This document shows, in pieces, positions 2,291 through 34,807 of a DNA stretch of 64,000 nucleotides. The DNA is from Dyella thiooxydans (lineage in GTDB: Bacteria > Pseudomonadota > Gammaproteobacteria > Xanthomonadales > Rhodanobacteraceae). Position 1 is the first letter of the stretch. The number at the start of each line of letters is the position of its first letter. Made by a program: the position numbers and the translations under genes. The notes beneath the pieces are model-generated. The model did no database searches, was not told where the DNA came from, and was given only the letters and a program-made list of their open reading frames with translations. The stretch lies in contig NZ_CP014841.1 of assembly GCF_001641285.1 (NCBI RefSeq), forward strand, positions 2,294,001 through 2,358,000, written 5' to 3'.

Positions 2291-5200
2291 TGGCCAGCTC
2301 CATCGCCTTCTGCTCCAGTATCTCGTGGATCTGCGCCAGCAGGTCGACCTCCTGATAGGGCTTGCCGAGGTAGCGGTCCACACCGAGATCGAACGCGCGC
2401 TGGCGGTGCTTCTCGCCGGTACGCGAGGTGATCATGATGATCGGCACATCGCGCAGACGCGGATCCGCCTTCATGTGCTCGGCCAGCTCGTAGCCGTCCA
2501 TCCGCGGCATCTCGATATCCAGCAGCATCAGGTCCGGCACCCGCTGCTCGTGCAGCTTCTCCAGGGCGTCGACGCCGTCCTTCGCGGTGTTGACCTCGAA
2601 GTCGTGGCGCTCGAGCACGCGGCCAGTGACCTTGCGCATGGTGATCGAGTCGTCCACCACCATCACCAGCGGTTTGGTGCGGACCTCCTCCACCACCGGT
2701 GCCATCACCGGCGCGAGACCCTCGGCCAGGCGCTGCTCGCGTCGGGCGATGCCGTGGCGTACCAGCGGCGGCAGGTCGAGAATCATCAGCACCGAACCGT
2801 CGCCCATGATGGTGGCACCGAGCAGGCCGGGCACCGAACTCACCTGGGGGCCGACCGACTTCACCACGATCTCGCGTGAGCCGATCACCGCATCGATGCG
2901 GATCGCCGCGCGCAGGTCGCCGGCACGGGTCAGCAGCAGCGGCAGCTGCGGCTCGTCCGCGGCGTAGCTCGACGGCAGGCCGAGCAGCTCGGCCAGGTCG
3001 TGGATGCCGTAGTCCTCGCCGTTGTGCAGGAACGACGGCTCGTCCGAGGCCAGATGGATCGCCAGCTCGTCCGGGGTGATCCGGGCCACGCCCTGCACCG
3101 AGGTCATCGGGATCGCGAACGTGGATTCGCCGATGCGCACCAGGATCGCCTGGGTCACGGCGAGCGTGAACGGCAGGCGCAGCACGAAGGTGGTGCCCTT
3201 GCCCTCCTGCGACTCGATCGACAGCGAACCACCGAGCTGCTTGATCTCGTTGGCCACCACGTCCATGCCCACGCCGCGACCGGCCAGCTGGGTCACCGCG
3301 CTGGCGGTGGAGAAGCCCGGCTGGGTGATCAGGGCGAGCAGCTGGTCGTCGCTCGGCTTCGCCTCGGCACGCAGCAGGCCGCGCTCGACGCCGCGCTTGC
3401 GGATCGCCTCGCGGTTCAGGCCACGGCCATCGTCGGTGACACGGATCACCACCTCGGTGGCTTCGCGGGCTACGCGGATGCGTACCGATCCCTCTTCCGG
3501 CTTGCCGGCCTTGCGGCGGTCTTCCGGCGACTCGATGCCATGGGCGATCGCATTGCGCAGCATGTGCTCGAACGGCGCCTTGATGCGGTCGAGCAGGTTG
3601 CGGTCCATTTCGCCGTGCGCGCCCTCGACGAACAGCTGGGCGCGCTTGCCTTCTTCCTGTGCCGCCTGACGCAGCGTGCGACGCAGGTTTGGCACCATCG
3701 TGTCGAACGGCAGCATGCGGGTGCGCAGCAGGCCTTCCTGCAGGTCGGCGCTCACGCGCGACTGCTGGATCAGCAGCGTCTCGGACTGACGGGTCAGCTC
3801 GTCGAGCATGCTCTGGATCGACACAAGGTCGGAGACCGACTCGGCCAGCGCACGCGAGTACTGCTGCAGCTGCGAGAAGCGGTCCAGCTCGAGCGGATCG
3901 AACACCGCCATGCCGGCTTCGCGGTGCTCGCGCTGGAAGCGCGCGATGATCTGCGCCTCGGTCTCGATTTCCAGCATGCGCAGCTGGCTGCGCAGGCGCA
4001 CCACGGTCTGATCCAGCTCGACCAGGTTGAAGCGGTAGCCGGCAACCTGCTGCTCCAGGCGCGAGCGGTAGATGGCCACCTCGCCGGCGTGGTTCACCAG
4101 GTTGTCGAGCAGCTCCGCGCGGACGCGGATCTGTTCCTGCGGCGAGCGCGACTCGTCGTAGCCTTCGGCGGCCACGTCGGGCAGCAGTTCGGGCAGGTTC
4201 TCCGCCGCCGGAACCGGGGTCGGCGCGGACACCGGCGCGGCAGCCGCCGGCGCCTCTTCGCGTTCGACGAGGGCCTCCTCGCCGGCGAGGACGAGCAGCC
4301 GGTCGATCATGGCCTGCGGGTAGCGGATGCCCTTGTTCTGGCCAATCCGCTGCACCAGCGCGTGCAGCTGATCGAAGCCGCCCTCGAGCGCACCGATCAG
4401 CGCCGCCGCCTGCTCCGGATCGCCGCTGATCGGCTTCTCGAGAAGCGTTTCGATCGCGTGCGCCAGGTCGCCCACCGGCACGAAGCCAGCGATGCGGGCA
4501 CCGCCCTTGAGCGTATGCAGGTCGCGCTGCAGCACCGGGACCTGGGCCAGGTCGCCCGGATCGGCGCGCCACTCGGCCAGCGCACCGTCGGCGTGGTCGA
4601 GGATCTCGCGCGCCTCTTCGGTGAACACTTCCAGCAGGTCCGGATCGATGTCGCCATGCCAGAGTTCGCCCGATTCGTCCTCGCTTTCGCCGGCGTCGGG
4701 CACCGGCTCGATCGCGACGGGCGCCGACTCGGCGACGGACTCCGGCTCGCGGGCATCGACAGTCTCAGCCTCTGCTTCAACCTCAGCTTCAGTTTCGGCT
4801 TCAGGCTCGCTCTCGGCGACAGGCTCCGCGGCGAGCTCCTGGTCGAACTGGCCAATGGACTCCTGCGGCTCCGTGGCATCGGGCTCAACGGCTTCGGGGG
4901 CCTCGCTCGATCCGGCGCCGTCGTCCAGCTCCGCCATATCGGCAGAGCCGGAAGACTCGAGGACTTCGTCGGCGGCGGGCGCTGTGCTCTCGGACACAGC
5001 GTCGGCCGGGGCGGCTTCCGGCGTCTCGCCGAATTCACGCCCGTCGACCAGCCCGGCGAACATGGACGCGAAATCGTCCTCGGCGGCAGGCGGCGCGACC
5101 GGCGGCTCCGGCGTGGGCTCGGCCTGTCCGCGCGGGTCGAAGGCGTCCAGCGCCGCCAGCATCTCGCTGGCCAACTGGTCGTGATGGGCGTCTTCCAGTG

Positions 5201-27591: not shown

Positions 27592-27603
27592 GGCTTTGAG
27601 GCT

Positions 27604-27763
27604 AGGAGTGAGGGAAGAGGAGTGAGAAGTGAGAGTGGAGCATGGGCATGCGGAGTGTCAGGGAGAGGGCCGGCAGCGGTCCACCGTGTGGTGTCGGACG
27701 ACGTCGCGAGTCTGCCTTCTCTCACTCCTCACTCCTCACTCCTCTCCACTCACTTCTCGCTCA
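27604..27763 (-). repeat. Heptad inverted repeat, copy A (ribB-ldcA gap)
   Basis: On the coding (minus) strand a purine-rich arm starts with the ribB stop codon itself (27763 down to 27717; units like GAGTGAG, GGAGTGA). A 76-nt spacer (27716-27641) follows, then a pyrimidine-rich complementary arm (27640-27604). Units are about 7 bp and tandem. The arms could pair as a stem of roughly 35 bp with mismatches. It fills almost the whole 169-nt intercistronic gap. It shares sequence and layout with copies at 28887-28999 and 34717-34807. Confidence 0.9.
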
Positions 27764-28852
27764 CACGTACTCGACCACTTCCAGCCCGAAGCCGCCCAGG
27801 CCGACCAGCTTGCGCGGCGTGCCGATCACCCTCAGCCGGTGCACGCCAAGGTCCGCCATGATCTGCGCGCCCAGCCCGAGCTGTCGCCACTGGTTGTGCT
27901 GCGCGTCCTCGGCGCTGATCGTGGCCGGCTGGCCCTTGAGTCGCGCCAGCAGCGCCTCTGGGGTGTCCTCGCCGGACAGCACCAGCAGCACGCCGCGACC
28001 CTCGTCACCGATCCGGCGCAGCGCGGCGGTGACCGTGAGGCCGAGGTCGTCGCGGGTCAGATGCAGCACGTCGGACAAGGTGTTGCGTACGTGCACGCGC
28101 GAGAGCACCGGGGCACCGTCGTCCACCGTGCCCTTGACCAGGGCGAAGTGCAGGCCGCGGCGGATCGCGTCGCGGTAGGCGATCAGCCGGAACGCGCCGA
28201 ACTCGGTGTCGACGTCCTCCTCGTGCACGCGCTCGACGGTCTTCTCGGTTTCCAGCCGGTAGCGGATCAGGTCGGCGATGGTGCCGATCTTCAGGCCGTG
28301 CTTCTGCGCGAAGACCTCCAGCTCGGGGCGACGCGCCATCGAGCCGTCCTCGTGCAGGATCTCGATCAGCACCGAGGCCGGCTCCAGCCCGGCCAGCGCG
28401 GCCAGGTCGCAGCCCGCCTCGGTGTGGCCGGCGCGGGTGAGCACGCCGCCCGGCTGGGCGGTGAGAGGGAACACGTGGCCGGGCTGGGACAGGTCCTGCG
28501 GCTTCGCGTCGGACTTCACCGCCACCTGGATGGTGCGCGCGCGGTCATGCGCCGAGATGCCGGTGGTGACGCCCTCGGCCGCCTCGATCGAGACGGTGAA
28601 GTTGGTGTGGTAAGGCGAGGTGTTGTCGCTGACCATCGGCTTGAGGCCGAGCTGGCGCGTGCGCTGCTCGGTGAGCGTGAGGCACAGCAGGCCGCGCGCC
28701 TCGCGCACCATGAAGTTGACGTCCTCCGGCCGCACCATCTGCGCGGCCATGACGATGTCGCCCTCGTTCTCGCGGTCCTCGTCGTCGAGGATCACGACCA
28801 TGCGGCCGGCGCGGATGTCTTCGAGGATCTCGGGGATGGTGTTGAAGCTCAT
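27761..28852 (-). CDS. ribB: RibB fused to a degenerate GTP cyclohydrolase II domain (RibBX type)
   Basis: 363 residues. Residues 1-200 are DHBP synthase (RibB), making dihydroxybutanone phosphate from ribulose 5-phosphate. The acidic loop is DDEDRENEGD (23-32) and the other active-site motif is RAGHTEAGCDLA (140-151). Residues 215-363 resemble GTP cyclohydrolase II, ending in GAQIMADLGVHRLRVIGTPRK. The zinc motif normally C-x10-C-x-C is absent: the aligned part, VHVRNTLSDVLHLTRDDLG (253-271), has no Cys, and YLRQEGRGIGL is lost. The only cysteines are Cys57 and Cys148. So the C-terminal half is probably not a cyclohydrolase, as in the RibBX variant known from Proteobacteria. Start at 28852 after an AAGG site. 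Confidence 0.93.
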   Translation of the reverse strand: MSFNTIPEILEDIRAGRMVVILDDEDRENEGDIVMAAQMVRPEDVNFMVREARGLLCLTLTEQRTRQLGLKPMVSDNTSPYHTNFTVSIEAAEGVTTGISAHDRARTIQVAVKSDAKPQDLSQPGHVFPLTAQPGGVLTRAGHTEAGCDLAALAGLEPASVLIEILHEDGSMARRPELEVFAQKHGLKIGTIADLIRYRLETEKTVERVHEEDVDTEFGAFRLIAYRDAIRRGLHFALVKGTVDDGAPVLSRVHVRNTLSDVLHLTRDDLGLTVTAALRRIGDEGRGVLLVLSGEDTPEALLARLKGQPATISAEDAQHNQWRQLGLGAQIMADLGVHRLRVIGTPRKLVGLGGFGLEVVEYV

Positions 28853-28886
28853 GGGGCGGAACCTTGGAAATGGGGATTGAGCGGGG

Positions 28887-28999
28887 GCGAGGAGCGAGTA
28901 GTGAGGAGTGAGAAGTGAGGAGTGAGAGAGGGCAAAGCCGGAGCGCACCCATGCTTTCTCTCACTTCTCACTCCTCTCCACTCACTCCTCGCTCCTCGG
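28887..28999 (-). repeat. Heptad inverted repeat, copy B (ribE-ribB gap)
   Basis: The purine-rich arm on the coding strand (28999-28956) begins a few bases after the ribE stop. The spacer is 25 nt (28955-28931), and the complementary arm is 28930-28887. The arms have about 44 nt each and pair over nearly their full length, allowing for one out-of-step irregular unit (GTGGAGAGGAG). The unit is 7 bp (GAAGTGA or GGAGTGA). The ribB Shine-Dalgarno lies 20-30 nt beyond the second arm. Confidence 0.92.
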
Positions 29000-29002
29000 C
29001 CC

Positions 29003-29644
29003 TCAGGCAAAACCGTGCTGCTTGAGGAAGTTGACGTCGATGCCGGACGCCTGGGAGCCACCGATCAGCCGCTCGACGTAGCGCGCGATCACGTCCACCT
29101 CGATGTTCACCGCGTCGCCGACCCGGCGCGCGTGGAAAGCCGTGTGCTCGACCGTATGCGGGATCAGGTTCACGCCGAAGCGCGCCCCGCTCACCTCGTT
29201 CACGGTCAGGCTGGTGCCGTCGATGCACACCGAGCCCTTGGCGGCGATGTAGCGCGCCAGCGCCTGCGGCACCTCGAAGGTCCAGCGCTGCGAGCGGCCG
29301 TCCGGGGTGATCGAGACGACCTTGCCGACGCCATCGACGTGACCGGAGACCAGGTGGCCGCCGAGCCGGTCGGCCAGCCGCAGCGCCTTCTCCAGGTTCA
29401 CCGGATCGCCGGCCTTGTGCCGACCGAGCGTGGTCAGCGACAACGTCTCGTTGGAGACGTCCGCGCTGAAGCCGCGCGCTTCCAGCGTCACCGCGGTGAG
29501 GCACACGCCGGAGACGGCGATCGAGTCGCCCAGCTGCACGTCGGCGAGGTCGAGGTCGGCGGTATCCACGTGCAGTCGCACGTCGCCGCCACGGGGCTCC
29601 AGCCGCACGATGCGGCCCACGCTCTGGATGATTCCGGTAAACAC
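29003..29644 (-). CDS. ribE: RibE, riboflavin synthase alpha chain
   Basis: 213 residues. It dismutates two lumazines to riboflavin plus pyrimidine. The start is GTG at 29644 giving MFTGIIQSVGRI, the standard opening, with Shine-Dalgarno GAGGAGAA eight bases upstream. Two lumazine-binding barrels are seen: first with GDSIAVSGVCLTAV, second with KGSVCIDGTSLTVNEV. The His motif HLVSGHVDGVG lies between them. The Shine-Dalgarno is part of a hairpin downstream of an FMN riboswitch, so translation should be repressed by FMN. Confidence 0.96.
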   Translation of the reverse strand: MFTGIIQSVGRIVRLEPRGGDVRLHVDTADLDLADVQLGDSIAVSGVCLTAVTLEARGFSADVSNETLSLTTLGRHKAGDPVNLEKALRLADRLGGHLVSGHVDGVGKVVSITPDGRSQRWTFEVPQALARYIAAKGSVCIDGTSLTVNEVSGARFGVNLIPHTVEHTAFHARRVGDAVNIEVDVIARYVERLIGGSQASGIDVNFLKQHGFA

Positions 29645-29648
29645 GAAA

Positions 29649-29675
29649 CGTTCTCCTCAAGCACAAGCGAGAACG
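29649..29675 (-). promoter_or_regulatory. Hairpin sequestering the ribE Shine-Dalgarno (riboswitch expression platform)
   Basis: On the minus strand CGTTCTC (29675-29669) is perfectly complementary to GAGAACG (29655-29649), and the second half overlaps the ribE Shine-Dalgarno GAGGAGAA. There is no T-tract, so the likely control is translational rather than by termination. Confidence 0.65.
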
Positions 29676-29725
29676 CCCCAAGGCATGAGGCAGGCGCGTC
29701 GCCCACAGGAGGCGCCGCACTGGCC

Positions 29726-29867
29726 GTCTTCTTTCATCCGGACTGTGACCGTCGGCTCCGGACTTGGACCGGATCTGCTGACCTCGCGACGGGCGTCGCG
29801 AGCGCTCGCGGGCTCGTGCCCGAAGGCACCTACCGCCGGTGGGGAGTTTCGCCCCGCCCTGAAGACG
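29726..29867 (-). ncRNA. FMN riboswitch (RFN element)
   Basis: The minus strand contains the conserved RFN parts in order. The P1 stem is GTCTTC (near 29866) pairing with GAAGAC (near 29726). Next are AGGGCGGGGCGAAACTCCCC, ACCGGCGGTA and a variable GC-rich P3/P4 region. Last come GGTCAGCAGATCCGGT, AAGTCCGGAGCCGACGGTCA and CAGTCCGGATGAAAGA. It lies 81 nt upstream of ribE. It controls the distal riboflavin genes (ribE, ribB and, by read-through, ribH). Confidence 0.96.
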
Positions 29868-29902
29868 TCGCTGAATTGTCTTGCCGGCGAACCGGCCCGC
29901 GG

Positions 29903-29908
29903 ATTCTA
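29903..29908 (-). promoter_or_regulatory. Candidate extended -10 element of the ribE operon
   Basis: The minus strand has TGCTAGAAT, an extended -10 (TGnTAGAAT) with the hexamer at 29908-29903. It would start RNA about 29 nt before the FMN riboswitch. No good -35 is visible, as is common with extended -10 promoters. It lies in the 97-nt gap after the lysR stop. Confidence 0.4.
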
Positions 29909-29964
29909 GCACCAAGCCCCGCAGCGCCCCGCCCGGCGGCGTCAGTCGTGGCGAACAGCGCGTC

Positions 29965-30876
29965 TCAGCAACCGCCCAGCTCGCGGGCCAGGAAATCGAT
30001 GAGGGTCCGCACCGCCGGCACGCGATCGGCGCCGGGCAGCCAGACCAGATGGATCGGCGATTGGCTCAGCTGCCAGTCCGGAAGCACTTCGACCAGATCG
30101 CCCGAGACGATCAGCGGATCGCCCATGTAGTCGCCCTGGACGCCGATGCCCACGCCGGCCAGCACGGCATCGCGGATCGCCTTGGAGTCGTTGCTCTGCA
30201 TGACGGGATCGATCCGCACCGAGCGCCGCTGGCGCTGCCGGGTGAACTGCCACAGCGTGCCGGTACGCAGGCCGCTGAAGGCCAGGCAGCGGTGGTCCTT
30301 CAGGTCGGCGGGATCGCGCAGCGGCGGCGCATGCTCGAGGTAGGCCGGCGTCGCGCACAGGTAGCGGCGCATCGTGCCGACGCGGCGGGCGACCAGTTGC
30401 GAATCGACCAGCCGACCGGCCCGCACCGCGAGATCGACCCGGGACGCGACCAGGTCGGCATAGGCGTCGTCGTAGGTCGCATCGATGCGCACCGCAGGAT
30501 GAGCCACCATGAAGCGCGCGAGCAGCGCCGCGATGCGCTGGATGCCGTAGTTGCGCGGCAGGTGGATGCGCAGCCTCCCCTGCAGCCCTCCCTGCTGCGG
30601 CTGCAGTTCCTCCGCCAGCTCGCCGAGCACGGCGTCCAGCCGATCGCAGTGCACCAGCAGCTGCTCGCCGCGCGCCGTCAGCGCCACGCGCCGCGTGGTG
30701 CGCAGGAACAGCCGGGCGCCCACCGCTGCCTCGAGCGAGGCGATCCGCCGGCTGAGCACCGAGGGCGTGCATCCCACCTCGCGCGCCGCCTTCGAGAAGT
30801 TGAGCAACCGGGCCGACGCGGCAAAGGCGCGTAGCTCGCGCACGCGGGTCGGTGTCAGCACGAATGATTCATTCAT
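29965..30876 (-). CDS. LysR-type transcriptional regulator
   Basis: 303 residues from ATG 30876 (an upstream ATG at 30915 would add 13 residues running through the operator). An N-terminal winged helix-turn-helix (about 5-65) contains NFSKAAREVGCTPSVLSRRIASLE. A LysR substrate domain follows (about 90-300; DLAVRAG and AGVGIGVQGDY are typical). It is divergently transcribed from an MDR reductase 89 nt away, with a palindrome overlapping its own start codon. It most likely controls that gene and itself; the effector is unknown. The gene sits directly upstream of the FMN riboswitch, separating two parts of the rib cluster. Confidence 0.92.
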   Translation of the reverse strand: MNESFVLTPTRVRELRAFAASARLLNFSKAAREVGCTPSVLSRRIASLEAAVGARLFLRTTRRVALTARGEQLLVHCDRLDAVLGELAEELQPQQGGLQGRLRIHLPRNYGIQRIAALLARFMVAHPAVRIDATYDDAYADLVASRVDLAVRAGRLVDSQLVARRVGTMRRYLCATPAYLEHAPPLRDPADLKDHRCLAFSGLRTGTLWQFTRQRQRRSVRIDPVMQSNDSKAIRDAVLAGVGIGVQGDYMGDPLIVSGDLVEVLPDWQLSQSPIHLVWLPGADRVPAVRTLIDFLARELGGC

Positions 30877-30892
30877 TTTTCGAACAAATGAA
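30872..30892. promoter_or_regulatory. Palindromic operator candidate between lysR and the MDR gene
   Basis: Perfect 7-bp arms TTCATTT (30872-30878) and AAATGAA (30886-30892) flank a 7-nt AT/CG core containing TTCGAA. Size and symmetry fit a LysR-type recognition site (T-N11-A class). It covers the lysR start codon, which suggests autoregulation. Confidence 0.6.
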
Positions 30893-30965
30893 GTGCATGG
30901 ATGGCGGATTATCACCCAGCGCCTGCCAGCCCACCATGCCGCCTCCCCTCCTCAGGAGCAACGCC

Positions 30966-31976
30966 ATGCGTGCCTATCGACTGAACGCCTTCGGGCTGGA
31001 CCACCTGCAACGCACCGAGCTGCCGGAGCCACAGCCAGGCCCCGGCCAGGTGCTGGTGAAGATGCAGGCCGCCGCACTCAACTACCGCGACCTGCTCGTG
31101 GCCCGCGGCGAGCTCTACCGCGGGGTGGAACTGCCGCTGGTGCCTGTGTCCGACGGCGCGGGCACGGTGGTGGCGGTCGGCGAGAACGTGCAGCGTTTCC
31201 GGCCCGGCGACCGCGTCACCACGCTGTACAAGGCGCGCTGGCTGGCCGGCGCGATCCGCCCGGAATGGGTCGGCGCCGAACCCGGCGGCCCCGACGACGG
31301 CGTGATGCGTGACCTGGCCTGCTTCGACGCCTACGCTCTCGCCCGCGCACCGCGGAATCTCGACCACCGCCAGGCCGCCACGCTGCCGATCGCCGCACTG
31401 ACCGCCTGGCAGGCACTGGACCTGGCACAGCTGACCAGCGGGCAATCGGTGCTGATCCTCGGCACCGGTGGCGTGTCGCTGTTCGCCCTGCAGCTGGCCC
31501 GCCTGCGCGGCGCGCGGACGATCGTGCTGTCGTCCAGCGACGAGAAGCTGGAACGCGCGCAGGGACTGGGCGCCGACATCGTGATCAACTACCGCCGGCA
31601 CCCGCAGTGGAGTCCGCTGGTTCGCGAAGCGACCGGCGGCTTGGGCGTGGATGCCGTGATCGAGACCGTCGGCGCGGCGACCCTGGCGCAGTCGATCGAC
31701 GCCGCCGCCATGCACGGCTTCATCGGCGTGGTCGGCTTCATGGGCGGCGACGAGGCGTCCATCCGCCTCACCCAGGCCGTGCTGAAGCGGCTGCGCATCC
31801 AGGGACTCTCGGTGGCACCGCTGGAGCAGCACGAGCGCATGGTCGCGGCGATCGAGCAGGGCCGTCTGGAGCCGGTGGTCGACCGCGTCTTTGGCTTCGA
31901 CCAGCTGCGCGAGGCGATGGAGTTCATGGCCTCCGGGCAGCACTTCGGCAAGGTCGTGATCGACTTCGAGCGCTGA
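30966..31976 (+). CDS. MDR-family NAD(P)-dependent alcohol dehydrogenase / quinone oxidoreductase
   Basis: 336 residues from ATG 30966 with an AGGAG Shine-Dalgarno. It has a GroES-like N-terminal domain (LNYRDLLVARGEL, VPVSDGAGTVVAVGENV) and a Rossmann domain with VLILGTGGVSLFALQLARLRGAR. The structural-zinc cysteine cluster is absent, so it belongs to the zinc-free quinone-oxidoreductase-like branch. The substrate cannot be told. It is divergent from, and probably controlled by, the adjacent LysR regulator. Confidence 0.9.
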   Translation: MRAYRLNAFGLDHLQRTELPEPQPGPGQVLVKMQAAALNYRDLLVARGELYRGVELPLVPVSDGAGTVVAVGENVQRFRPGDRVTTLYKARWLAGAIRPEWVGAEPGGPDDGVMRDLACFDAYALARAPRNLDHRQAATLPIAALTAWQALDLAQLTSGQSVLILGTGGVSLFALQLARLRGARTIVLSSSDEKLERAQGLGADIVINYRRHPQWSPLVREATGGLGVDAVIETVGAATLAQSIDAAAMHGFIGVVGFMGGDEASIRLTQAVLKRLRIQGLSVAPLEQHERMVAAIEQGRLEPVVDRVFGFDQLREAMEFMASGQHFGKVVIDFER

Positions 31977-32018
31977 CGCAGAACCCGGGCGGGACGGCCA
32001 GGGCGACGCCCGTCGCGT

Positions 32019-33041
32019 CTACCGGCCGATCGCCTGCCCGGTCGCGCGGCGCCAGTCGGCCAGCACCTGATCCATCGCCCAAGCGGTGCGCAGGGCCGCT
32101 TCCGGAGTGGACGGGCAGGCCCCCGCCTCGCCGCGCAGTTCGGCCACGATGGTCTCGATCAGCGGCTGCTGGATGTGCGGCGGGTTGGCCTCGACGAAGC
32201 TTTCGCTGCCCTGCGCGGTCTCGAGCTCGATCGGCCCGTCGCCGAAGGTGGCGAAGGCGAGCCGCCCCCGGTCGCCGGTGATCTCGATGCGGTCCTCGTA
32301 ACGGAAGCTGCCGAACTGCCACAGACCGGTGCCGACCAGGCCGCTGGCGAAGGCATAACCCATCGCCACGCTGTCCTCGGCGGCATAGGCGCCGAGCTGG
32401 TTGGTGGCCAGCCCCTTCGAGGTCACGATCGGGCCGAACAGCCAGTCCAGCAGGTCGAGCGTGTGGCAGCCCAGGTCCATGAACAGGCCACCGCCGGAGA
32501 TCGCCGGCTGCACATGCCAGTGCGATGCGGCTGGGTCGGCATAGCGCGCGTGCAACGGCTGGTGCAGCGACACATGCACCGAGCGCGGCGCGCCGATCGC
32601 GCCGGACTCCAGCAGCGTGCGCACGCGGCGGAAGCGCGGCAGGGCGCGGCGGTAGTAGGCGACGAACACCGGCACGCCAGCCGCCCGGCCCGCGTCGATG
32701 ATCGCCTGGCACTCGGCCGCGTCCATCGCCATCGGCTTCTCCACGTAGACCGGCTTGCCGGCGGCGATCGCCATCAGCGCGTAGGCCTTGTGGGTCGAGG
32801 GCGGCGTGGCGACGTAGACCGCGTTGACGGCCGGATCGTCGACCAGCGCCTGCGCGTCGTCGTACCACGTCGGCACGCCGTGGCGCTGCGCGTAGTCGCG
32901 CGCCTTGGCGCCGTCGCGGCGCATCACCGCCACCAGCGAGGAATGGGACGCGCGCTGCAGCGCCGGCCCGCTCTTCACCTCGGTGACGTTGCCGCAGCCG
33001 ATGATGCCCCAGCGCACCACGTCCATCGGCGCGAAGCTCAT
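32019..33041 (-). CDS. Gfo/Idh/MocA family oxidoreductase
   Basis: 340 residues. The N-terminal Rossmann motif is WGIIGCGNVTEVKSGPA, the EKP motif is VYVEKPMAMDAAEC (about residues 98-111), and the C-terminal domain has GGGLFMDLGCHTLDLLDWLFG with the expected Asp and His. Family members oxidise or reduce sugars or inositols with NAD(P); the substrate is unknown. Its ATG overlaps the ribD stop by four bases (ATGA), so it is translated from the ribD message. It converges on the MDR gene with a 42-nt gap. Confidence 0.92.
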   Translation of the reverse strand: MSFAPMDVVRWGIIGCGNVTEVKSGPALQRASHSSLVAVMRRDGAKARDYAQRHGVPTWYDDAQALVDDPAVNAVYVATPPSTHKAYALMAIAAGKPVYVEKPMAMDAAECQAIIDAGRAAGVPVFVAYYRRALPRFRRVRTLLESGAIGAPRSVHVSLHQPLHARYADPAASHWHVQPAISGGGLFMDLGCHTLDLLDWLFGPIVTSKGLATNQLGAYAAEDSVAMGYAFASGLVGTGLWQFGSFRYEDRIEITGDRGRLAFATFGDGPIELETAQGSESFVEANPPHIQQPLIETIVAELRGEAGACPSTPEAALRTAWAMDQVLADWRRATGQAIGR

Positions 33042-34132
33042 GCCACGCTCCGCAGGCGCAGGCGCCAGTCGGGACCGATGCTGCGCTGGTCGAACACCTC
33101 CAGCTGCCAGCGATCCGTCATCTCGGTCAGTGGCGGCAGTTCCATCAGCGGACGACCCCGGTCGCCGAGGAAGGTGGGTGCGACGTAGAGCAGCAGCTCG
33201 TCGGCCAGCCCCGCCGTGAAAAGCGCACCGCCCAGGCGCGGACCGGCCTCGACGTGCAGTTCGTTGACGCCGCGGGCCGCCAGCAGGGCGAGGATCTCAT
33301 CCAGCGCCAGCCGCCCGTTGGCGTCGACCGCCACCCCGGCATGCTCGACGCCCTCGGGCACCGGCACCGGCGACGGAATCACCCGGTCATGCAGCAGCAG
33401 GGTCGGCGCGCTGCCGTCCATCACGTGGAAGCGCGCGGGGATGCGCAGATCGCGGTCCAGCAGCACGCGCAGCGGCGGCGTGAAGTCCTCCCCGGCGGGC
33501 AGGCGCACGGTCAGCCGTGGGTTGTCCGCCAGCACGGTACCGCTACCGGCCAGGATCGCCGAACTGCGCGCGCGCCAGCGCTGGCCGTCGGCGCGGGCCG
33601 CCTCGCCGGTGATCCACTGCGAGGCGCCGTTGGCCAGCGCGGTGCGCCCGTCCAGGCTCATCGCCAGCTTTACCCGCACATACGGCCGACTGCGCTCGAC
33701 GCGGCTGAAGAAGCCGGGATTGAGCGCACGCGCCGGCTCGCGCATCAGCCCCGTCTCCACCACGATGCCGGCGCCGCGCAACCGCGCCAGTCCGGCGCCC
33801 TCGGCCTGCGAGGTGTCCTCGGCGGCGATCACCACGCGGGCAATACCGGCGGCGATCAGCGCATCCGCGCACGGCGGCGTGCGCCCGTGCAGGCCGCAGG
33901 GCTCCAGCGTGACGTAGGCGGTGGCGCCTCGTGCCCGCTCGCCCGCATCGCGCAGCGCGAACACCTCGGCATGCGGGCCGCCTGCGCGCTGGTGCCAGCC
34001 CTCGCCCACTACCTCACCACCGTGGGCGATGACGCAGCCGACGCGCGGATTGGGCTGGGTGGTGGAGAGCCCGCGCTCGGCCAGCGCGAGCGCGCGGGCC
34101 ATGTGGGCGTGGTCGATGGCGGAGAACGGCAT
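33038..34132 (-). CDS. ribD: RibD, bifunctional pyrimidine deaminase/reductase
   Basis: 364 residues. The N-terminal deaminase domain (1-145) has the zinc motif HAEVFALRDAG with LEPCGLHGRTPPCADALI. The C-terminal reductase domain (about 150-364) has RPYVRVKLAMSLDGRTALANGASQWITG and GPRLGGALFTAGLADEL. It does the second and third steps of the GTP branch of riboflavin synthesis. It follows nrdR by 48 nt, a conserved order, and overlaps a Gfo/Idh gene. It lacks its own FMN riboswitch, unlike the ribE block. Confidence 0.97.
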   Translation of the reverse strand: MPFSAIDHAHMARALALAERGLSTTQPNPRVGCVIAHGGEVVGEGWHQRAGGPHAEVFALRDAGERARGATAYVTLEPCGLHGRTPPCADALIAAGIARVVIAAEDTSQAEGAGLARLRGAGIVVETGLMREPARALNPGFFSRVERSRPYVRVKLAMSLDGRTALANGASQWITGEAARADGQRWRARSSAILAGSGTVLADNPRLTVRLPAGEDFTPPLRVLLDRDLRIPARFHVMDGSAPTLLLHDRVIPSPVPVPEGVEHAGVAVDANGRLALDEILALLAARGVNELHVEAGPRLGGALFTAGLADELLLYVAPTFLGDRGRPLMELPPLTEMTDRWQLEVFDQRSIGPDWRLRLRSVA

Positions 34133-34180
34133 GGCGGGTCGGTGGCGGCGGATCCGGCCGGCAGCATACCGCCCGGGCGG

Positions 34181-34708
34181 CTACTTCTCGCCCTTGCGCG
34201 GCTTGCGCGACGGGTCGGCGCCGAGCAGCGACAGCTGCAGCTTTTCCAGTTCGGGCAGGTCGCGTTCGAGCTTCTCGATTTCCTCGCGGAACGCCTGCAC
34301 GTCCTCGAACCGGCGGTAGACCGAGGCGAATCGCACGTAGGCGACCTGGTCGAGCTTGCCCAGCTCGCGCATCACCAGCTCGCCGATATGGCGCGAAGGC
34401 ACCTCGCGTTCACCGCTGCGGCGCAGGTCGTTGATGATCTCGCGCACCGAATTGTCCACGTCGTGGCTGGCCACCGGGCGCTTCTGCAGCGCGCGCTCGA
34501 AGCTGGTGCGCAGCTTGCGCTCGTCGAATGCCTCGCGCCGCTCGCCGCTCTTCACGATCGCCGGCAACTTCAGCTCGGCGGTCTCGAAGGTGTTGAAGCG
34601 TTCGCCGCACTGCGGGCACTCGCGACGGCGGCGCACGGTGGCACCGTCGTCGGCGAGGCGCGAGTCGATCACGCGGGTGTCTTCGTGCTGGCAGAAAGGA
34701 CAATGCAT
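34181..34708 (-). CDS. nrdR: NrdR, ribonucleotide reductase repressor
   Basis: 175 residues. A zinc ribbon at 1-40 (CPFC then CPQCGERF) is followed by an ATP-cone domain (about 49-139) that senses ATP/dATP. It represses nrd operons. The last 20 residues are Lys/Arg-rich. No Shine-Dalgarno is visible before ATG 34708; the pyrimidine arm of a heptad inverted repeat ends only nine bases upstream, so the structure may affect initiation or couple it to glyA. Confidence 0.96.
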
Positions 34709-34716
34709 AGGGGATC

Positions 34717-34807
34717 AGGAGTGAGAGTTGAGAAGTGAGGAGTGAGAGGAAATCCTCAAGCCGGTCTTTCTCTCACTTCTCACTCCTCTTCACTCGCTTC
34801 TCGCTCA
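34717..34807 (-). repeat. Heptad inverted repeat, copy C (glyA-nrdR gap)
   Basis: On the coding (minus) strand the purine-rich arm begins with the glyA stop codon (34807-34767, TGAGCGAGAAGCGAG and on). The spacer is 16 nt (34766-34751), and the complementary arm is 34750-34717. The arms are about 34-41 nt with 7-bp units. It occupies nearly the entire 96-nt gap before nrdR. Confidence 0.92.

Follow-up and report, generated by a model that had tools for sequence, protein, structure and literature searches.

In REPIN-RAYT systems, a single gene is flanked by a short repeat in inverted copies, gene-less pairs of the repeat are dispersed in large numbers through the genome, the repeats are lineage-specific, and REPINs outnumber RAYTs. 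Inverted repeats also flank the gene in the intervening sequences (IVSs) of 23S rRNA. In Coxiella an S23p open reading frame (ORF) lies within a 28-bp stem in an IVS of ~430 nt that is excised by RNase III, and mobility has been proposed for it (available text of PMC4990558). The same text describes the XCC0516-type protein of this family (IVP, PF05635) as a homopentamer of four-helix bundles. Avd of the diversity-generating retroelements has been linked with PF05635 by a related four-helix-bundle fold (available text of the review PMC10053308), and PF05635 genes are reported in cas loci in the available part of another paper. The GGGAATC/GGGNATC heptads of Xanthomonas and Nostoc are treated as G-quadruplex repeats and generally not tied to mobile elements; inverted convergent GGGAATC pairs number 70 in Xcc and 75 in Xac (Rehm et al. 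2015, available text of PMC4692102). That text contains none of the terms 'intervening', 'four-helix' and 'S23'. TAACTGA repeats of marine Beggiatoaceae are likewise abundant intergenic heptads (available text of PMC4679880). Here we analyze a 64,000-nt stretch of the Dyella thiooxydans chromosome (NZ_CP014841.1, positions 2,294,001 to 2,358,000; the window), in which three gaps between genes, ribB-ldcA, ribE-ribB and glyA-nrdR, hold the inverted repeats E07, E08 and E09. The three are probably gene-less members of a small mobile hairpin family whose full form carries the IVP/S23 gene and whose spread would be assisted by IVP in trans.

Each of the three gaps contains a purine-rich arm, then a spacer, then the complementary pyrimidine arm. 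The preliminary description of the window considered a dispersing family, which calls for further copies, and a search of the 4.23-Mb genome gave 17 elements (E01-E17), just three of them in the window. The purine arm comes first and the pyrimidine arm second in every one. The arm core, allowed up to 3 mismatches, had 51 matches in the whole genome and the reversed-pattern control had 15, which are assumed to fall inside the same near-symmetric arms. All arm-core matches in this genome belong to two-armed elements, and none is a solo arm. An element has a variable centre enclosed by inverted ~40-nt arms that are built of 7-nt units and begin with the purine-rich (G-rich) strand. The arms share one fixed, irregular consensus, approximately GAGCGAGGAGTGAGTGGAGAGGAGTGAGAAGTGAGAGAAAGC from outer to inner as we read it across the elements. 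They therefore constitute a defined inverted repeat whose sequence has a heptad rhythm, as opposed to a free array of tandem heptads. The three window elements share this consensus, as had been noted. Of the earlier picture of tandemly expanded GAGTGAG-like heptads, the rhythm and the expansion stand, but the free array does not. Gene-less inverted pairs make up 16 of the 17 copies, a REPIN-type dispersal. By our reading of gene context, the flanking genes are co-directional at 15 elements, convergent at two (E13 and E16) and divergent at none. Usually a stop or start codon is only a few bases away, and at several element ends the stop codon is formed by a T plus the element's first bases (TGAGCGAG). 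Rfam returned microRNA models and one snoRNA model on the elements, all below gathering scores, and therefore no known RNA family. The GGGANNS triplet pattern, a test for the Xanthomonas GGGANTN heptads, had 0 matches in this genome.

The seventeenth copy carries a gene. E12 (~3487091-3487571, 481 nt) has a ~410-nt centre that holds the ORF of the genome's only PF05635 (23S_rRNA_IVP) gene. The protein matches PF05635 over positions 2-105 of 106 with 122.3 bits (E 3.3e-35; curated cut-off 33.8 bits), and alignment A1 matches PDB 2gsc (XCC0516) at 4.5e-42. The ORF is enclosed by a long closing stem in the predicted fold. A pN/pS of 0.08-0.38 in 11 chosen IVP pairs shows purifying selection, and the gene for this reason looks functional. 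E12 lies between two protein genes, which we take by resemblance to be nrdA and nrdB, and not inside a 23S rRNA gene. No Rfam match reached the gathering threshold in the 18 IVP loci tested, E12's included, and by this measure none of them is a 23S rRNA insertion. The NrdB frame appears to start inside E12 and, in our reading, takes its N-terminus from arm and spacer in place of the congeners' N-terminus (L040 ~3050-3150). A different arrangement occupies the same gap in the three congeners G001-G003 (L246, L235 and L259), where a reading frame that is presumably GIY-YIG-like adjoins GTCATCCC...GGAATGACG inverted repeats instead of an IVP element. This frame with its repeats is possibly another gene-plus-hairpin family.

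PF05635 was found in 26 of 60 relatives (the D. thiooxydans genome included) and, across the phylum, in 52 of 299 genomes. IVP loci came from the relatives (31 matches, 30 with loci), from the phylum genomes (loci for 30 matches, L045 included) and from a scan of named genomes by one peptide pattern, from which the best 80 of 589 confirmed stretches were used; the tested loci are for that reason an uneven sample. The best inverted match between the 450 nt on each side of a locus was scored against 30 shuffles. Three of the 139 loci, all from the named-genome scan, were dropped for short flanks, which left 136 testable. Flanking inverted arms scored above the shuffles at most of these loci (103 of 136), and 92 of the 103 had a best period of 7 or 14. 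E12 and 102 of the other 135 loci thus have the IVP ORF between inverted repeats, as an IVS does. The arms were significant at 28 of 34 loci at the level of the order (25 with period 7 or 14), at 19 of 29 from other members of the phylum (18) and at 56 of the 73 other testable loci from the best 80 of 589 in the named scan (49). The same procedure applied to 234 shifted placements in these loci gave one significant result, with period 5.

The arms have a common form and differing sequences. G exceeds C in the first arm of 91 of the 103 loci, C exceeds G in 8, and 4 are tied. The median aligned arm is 33 nt, about five heptads, in the 81 loci that passed the score and period cut. The heptads vary widely (GGGACCG, GGGATTC, GGTGACG, AGTAGGC, TTAGTGG and AGTTCTC are examples); a universal heptad sequence was rejected, since none was found, and AG is present in 59 of 81 period-7 heptads. 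Arm similarity tracks IVP similarity, with a Mantel r of 0.28 that was reached in 0 of 2000 permutations (n = 78 of the 81 loci, uncorrected for relatedness). Two genomes with two IVPs each have two kinds of arm, G042 (L056 and L073) and G052 (L063 and L074). The best period is 8 at L072 and L074. At L057 the IVP gene lies between long inverted arrays whose unit combines CTGGGGAACG with a small, variable palindrome and is longer than 7 nt, contrary to the heptad rule. The full form of the 17-copy family with its IVP/S23 gene, and the heptad arms around IVP genes in many phyla, are the main point beyond the window. The association of heptad arms with an orphan S23/IVP gene in so many phyla suggests an overlooked class of mobile element. 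In the literature searched, whose coverage leaves out most subscription papers and bioRxiv preprints, no title or abstract opening joined heptad arms to IVP.

Gene-less heptad arms were found in other genomes. The GGGANNS pattern had at least 10 matches in 20 of the 60 relatives, and an IVP gene is present in 14 of these 20 vs 12 of the 40 others. The matches overlap, so that one long array counts many times (G014 has 1 forward and 88 reverse) and the counts overstate the number of arrays; the backward control of the pattern was also positive in some genomes (e.g. G058 and G028). These counts give no more than a rough indication that, in GGGANNS genomes, trans-copies outnumber the IVP gene. 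In another genus AGTAGGC was present in each of the 8 IVP-bearing genomes examined (1 to 65 matches), and one of them, G129, has convergent AGTAGGC pairs away from its IVP gene. TTAGTGG matched in 3 of 8 named genomes, among them the source genome of locus L112. Arms of GGGAATC type at a Dyella IVP locus (L158) link the Xanthomonas heptad repeats with IVP-associated arms; the GGGAATC heptads of Xanthomonas appear to be arms of this type as well. Both are built from 7-nt G-rich units, are intergenic, lie near the 5' ORF and mostly between aligned ORFs, and form inverted convergent pairs (available text of PMC4692102). The differences are that the heptad in D. thiooxydans is GAGTGAG-like and that its arms are tied to the IVP gene.

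All 17 sites were compared in three congeners (G001-G003; the D. thiooxydans genome is G000). The element is lacking in at least one of the three at 12 of the 17 sites, plainly so at E03, E04, E05, E06, E08, E09, E10, E12, E14, E15 and E16; at the remaining one, E13, the right flank is rearranged in G003. All four genomes have E01, E02, E07, E11 and E17. The flank of E05 is rearranged in G002. E08 is absent from G001 and G003, where a different repeat occupies the gap, and E09 is present in G002, replaced by a short empty gap in G001 and by a coding-like stretch in G003. In sister genomes the corresponding gap often contains a different hairpin repeat, which is GTCATTCC...GGAATGAC or GTAGGAGCGC...GCGCTCCTAC. 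Where congeners share an element, their arm lengths differ by multiples of 7 (E01 by 7, E07 by 14 and E11 by 35, the 14 nt at E07 lying in a right arm that is longer in G000 than in G001), and the heptads thus expand and contract. The spacer is inverted at three sites, E08 in G002 (inverted score 64 vs 17), E16 in G002 (192 vs 20) and E11 in G001 and G002 (55 vs 12). The dispersing family considered in the preliminary description is therefore supported: the genome has further copies, the copies are not at the same places in all relatives, and clean empty sites exist in sister genomes.

The insertion event can be read at two empty sites. E14 has a clean empty site in G001, where the upstream stop and the downstream start overlap as ATGA. 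ATGA is found on both sides of the element in the filled sites, as GCATGA in G000 and G002. An independent site, L302, is filled only in G002 and empty in the other three genomes, and has the same duplication with GTGA as the left copy and ATGA as the other. Insertion duplicated the overlapping stop/start codon ATGA at E14 and L302. Of the features of classical miniature inverted-repeat transposable elements (MITEs), inverted repeats are present in 17 of 17 elements; a duplication of ~4-6 bp is seen at the two ATGA sites, is not readable at E15 and E16 and is doubtful at E09.

Nine further elements of G001 and G002 were also compared. L304 could not be placed and L300 and L306 are one locus, which leaves seven distinct placeable loci. 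Each is missing from at least one genome, and their absence from G000 is largely a selection effect, as the seven were chosen for not being among its 17. Two-armed elements were present in 18 of the 20 stretches fetched from the congeners. L298 and L339 have a spacer with a terminator-like hairpin, and the corresponding gap in G000 and G003 is more than 1.2 kb and has a coding-like stretch instead.

The three window elements are on the minus strand, at the gaps named in the preliminary description (arm to arm at ~27604-27762, 28884-29002 and 34717-34806). E07 (27601-27763) fills the ribB-ldcA gap, with its purine arm on the plus strand at ~27604-27636 and its pyrimidine arm at ~27714-27762. 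E08 (28884-29002) fills the ribE-ribB gap with arms at 28884-28934 and 28952-29002. E09 (34713-34807) is in the glyA-nrdR gap, with its purine arm at ~34717-34749 and its pyrimidine arm at 34766-34806. Direct reading places the ribB stop codon TGA at 27761-27763 and the glyA stop codon TGA at 34805-34807 (both minus strand), and the GA of each is the first two bases of the element end GAGCGAG. The ribE stop codon TGA (29003-29005, minus strand) adjoins E08, and the nrdR start codon (34706-34708, minus strand) is ~8 nt from the outer end of E09. Spacers separate the arms as reported earlier, but they measure 87, 33 and 25 nt by the present arm rule and not 76, 25 and 16 nt, the earlier count having assigned more of the inner edge to the arms. 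The long RNA hairpins that had been proposed are borne out by prediction, as the folds of E07, E08 and E09 each beat all 200 dinucleotide shuffles (z = -4.97, -7.96 and -3.65). An FMN riboswitch (RF00050, 101.4 bits) is near the rib genes at window positions 29722-29870 on the minus strand.

The best reading of these data is that the family is probably REPIN-RAYT-like, with IVP standing in the transposase's place. The elements resemble REPIN-RAYT in their inverted pairs at gene junctions, the one gene flanked by the same repeats and the many gene-less copies. They differ in that the gene encodes a four-helix-bundle protein and not an HUH transposase, and in arms that are heptad runs and not single repetitive extragenic palindromic (REP) palindromes. 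The arms had been described as unlike REP elements, which is correct for the sequence, but the geometry resembles REPIN-RAYT and the same genome likely contains an example of it. At L349 (G000 C1:1620035) a Y1_Tnp RAYT-like gene is flanked by GTAGGAGCG-type repeats, of which three lie on one side and seven, inverted, on the other; this is likely a REPIN-RAYT with the same geometry as the heptad elements. The likeness to the 23S rRNA IVS of Coxiella is a protein of the same family between terminal inverted repeats that form a long stem (available text of PMC4990558). Unlike that IVS, the Dyella elements are in intergenic DNA, have heptad arms and exist in many gene-less copies. The Beggiatoaceae TAACTGA repeats are similar in being abundant heptads in intergenic DNA (available text of PMC4679880).

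That IVP mobilises the arms we infer, and a mechanism can be proposed. The solved relative of IVP forms a five-membered ring; IVP itself would bind the 7-nt repeats as single strands and would let host enzymes copy or move pairs of arms in trans. Action in trans would leave arm-only copies outnumbering the IVP gene, as REPINs outnumber RAYTs. Insertions may persist at the stop/start junctions of co-directional genes because the RNA hairpin would fold out and keep stop and start close, and RNase III may trim the hairpin as it does with IVSs in 23S rRNA. A five-fold ring might, as a guess, read about one 7-nt unit per subunit, which would explain a constant period with a free sequence. A wider version, which we advance only tentatively, makes IVP/S23 the cognate protein of a bacteria-wide class of transposase-free mobile hairpins. 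Heptads would be needed in such a class for the five-fold ring to read about one per subunit; the class would include the Xanthomonas heptads, would be the source of the 23S rRNA IVSs and would be kin of Avd.

Several observations weigh against IVP-assisted mobility. We know of no nuclease or transposase activity of IVP. E15 and E16, both empty in G003, have no confidently readable duplication, and E09 has at most a doubtful TGA. The spacers have little in common, with 9 passes in 272 pairwise tests and one of those passes trivial. Just one arm was detected in two of the 20 congener stretches (L305 and L308). The spacers of E05 and of the L298 site hold terminator-like sequence and may be native, which would suit arms placed around resident DNA. 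Significant arms are lacking at 33 of the 136 testable IVP loci; the weak best match still has period 7 or 14 in 18 of these (e.g. L059, L127 and L159) and lacks it in 15 (e.g. L049, L069, L139 and L202). The arrays might instead spread by some other process, with the IVP gene a passenger that inserts into or between them. IVP-less arms are indeed common, and three congeners have arms and no IVP gene, so copies can be kept without it. No IVP remnant scored above shuffles in any of the other 16 copies (16 of 16 checked), and these are therefore not plain deletion derivatives; a MITE deletion model, in which gene-less copies are IVP elements minus the gene, was rejected. In 300 kb of G005, 6 arrays matched a strict motif; two of the arrays make up a convergent pair, and the remaining 4, with no detected partner, appear solo. 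This motif misses degenerate arms such as the second arm of G005's own IVP locus. A passenger gene is nevertheless unlikely, for the arms follow the IVP sequence, as the Mantel test agrees and as the differing arms of the two IVPs in G042 and in G052 illustrate, and phyla whose heptads are unrelated likewise have heptad arms around IVP.

Retro-mobility, in which IVP as kin of Avd acts with a reverse transcriptase in trans, seems quite unlikely. Avd and PF05635 are structurally alike, with a related four-helix-bundle fold (available text of PMC10053308), and the position of most elements between co-directional genes makes their transcription probable. Unlike a diversity-generating retroelement, G000 has no RVT_1 (PF00078) match, nor have G002 and G003; G001 has one. 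A reverse transcriptase as a necessary partner in the genus was rejected on this absence from three of the four genomes, although a source could have been lost. Very unlikely, too, is a family that is not mobile at all and consists of regulatory or processing hairpins selected at operon junctions and lengthened by slippage. The strong predicted RNA folds, the gene contexts (15 of 17 co-directional, two convergent, none divergent) and the length changes in multiples of 7 would fit such hairpins, but the empty sites, the ATGA duplications and the fact that one gap can carry different repeat families in different sister genomes do not, and by direct reading no poly-U run follows E07, E08 or E09. 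REPIN-type mobility by resident RAYT/Y1 transposases is highly improbable despite the alike geometry and the two Y1_Tnp matches in the genome, and RAYT as the driver was rejected, since the exact heptad motif was found at 0 of 8 Y1_Tnp loci of the four congeners (fetched flanks), two of these loci (L349, and L353 in a single orientation) have many GTAGGAGCGC-type repeats instead, and G003 has heptad elements and no Y1_Tnp match.

If the heptad arms are IVP's own sites, two old puzzles would merge into one testable question: why bacteria have so many heptameric repeats, and what purpose is served by S23/IVP, long known from split 23S rRNA. IVP-assisted mobility, if true, would add to the mobile elements a class that has no recognised transposase and that sets long RNA hairpins between genes within operons. 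The operons touched would be rib and glyA-nrdR in the window and, by our own reading, trp and nrd elsewhere.

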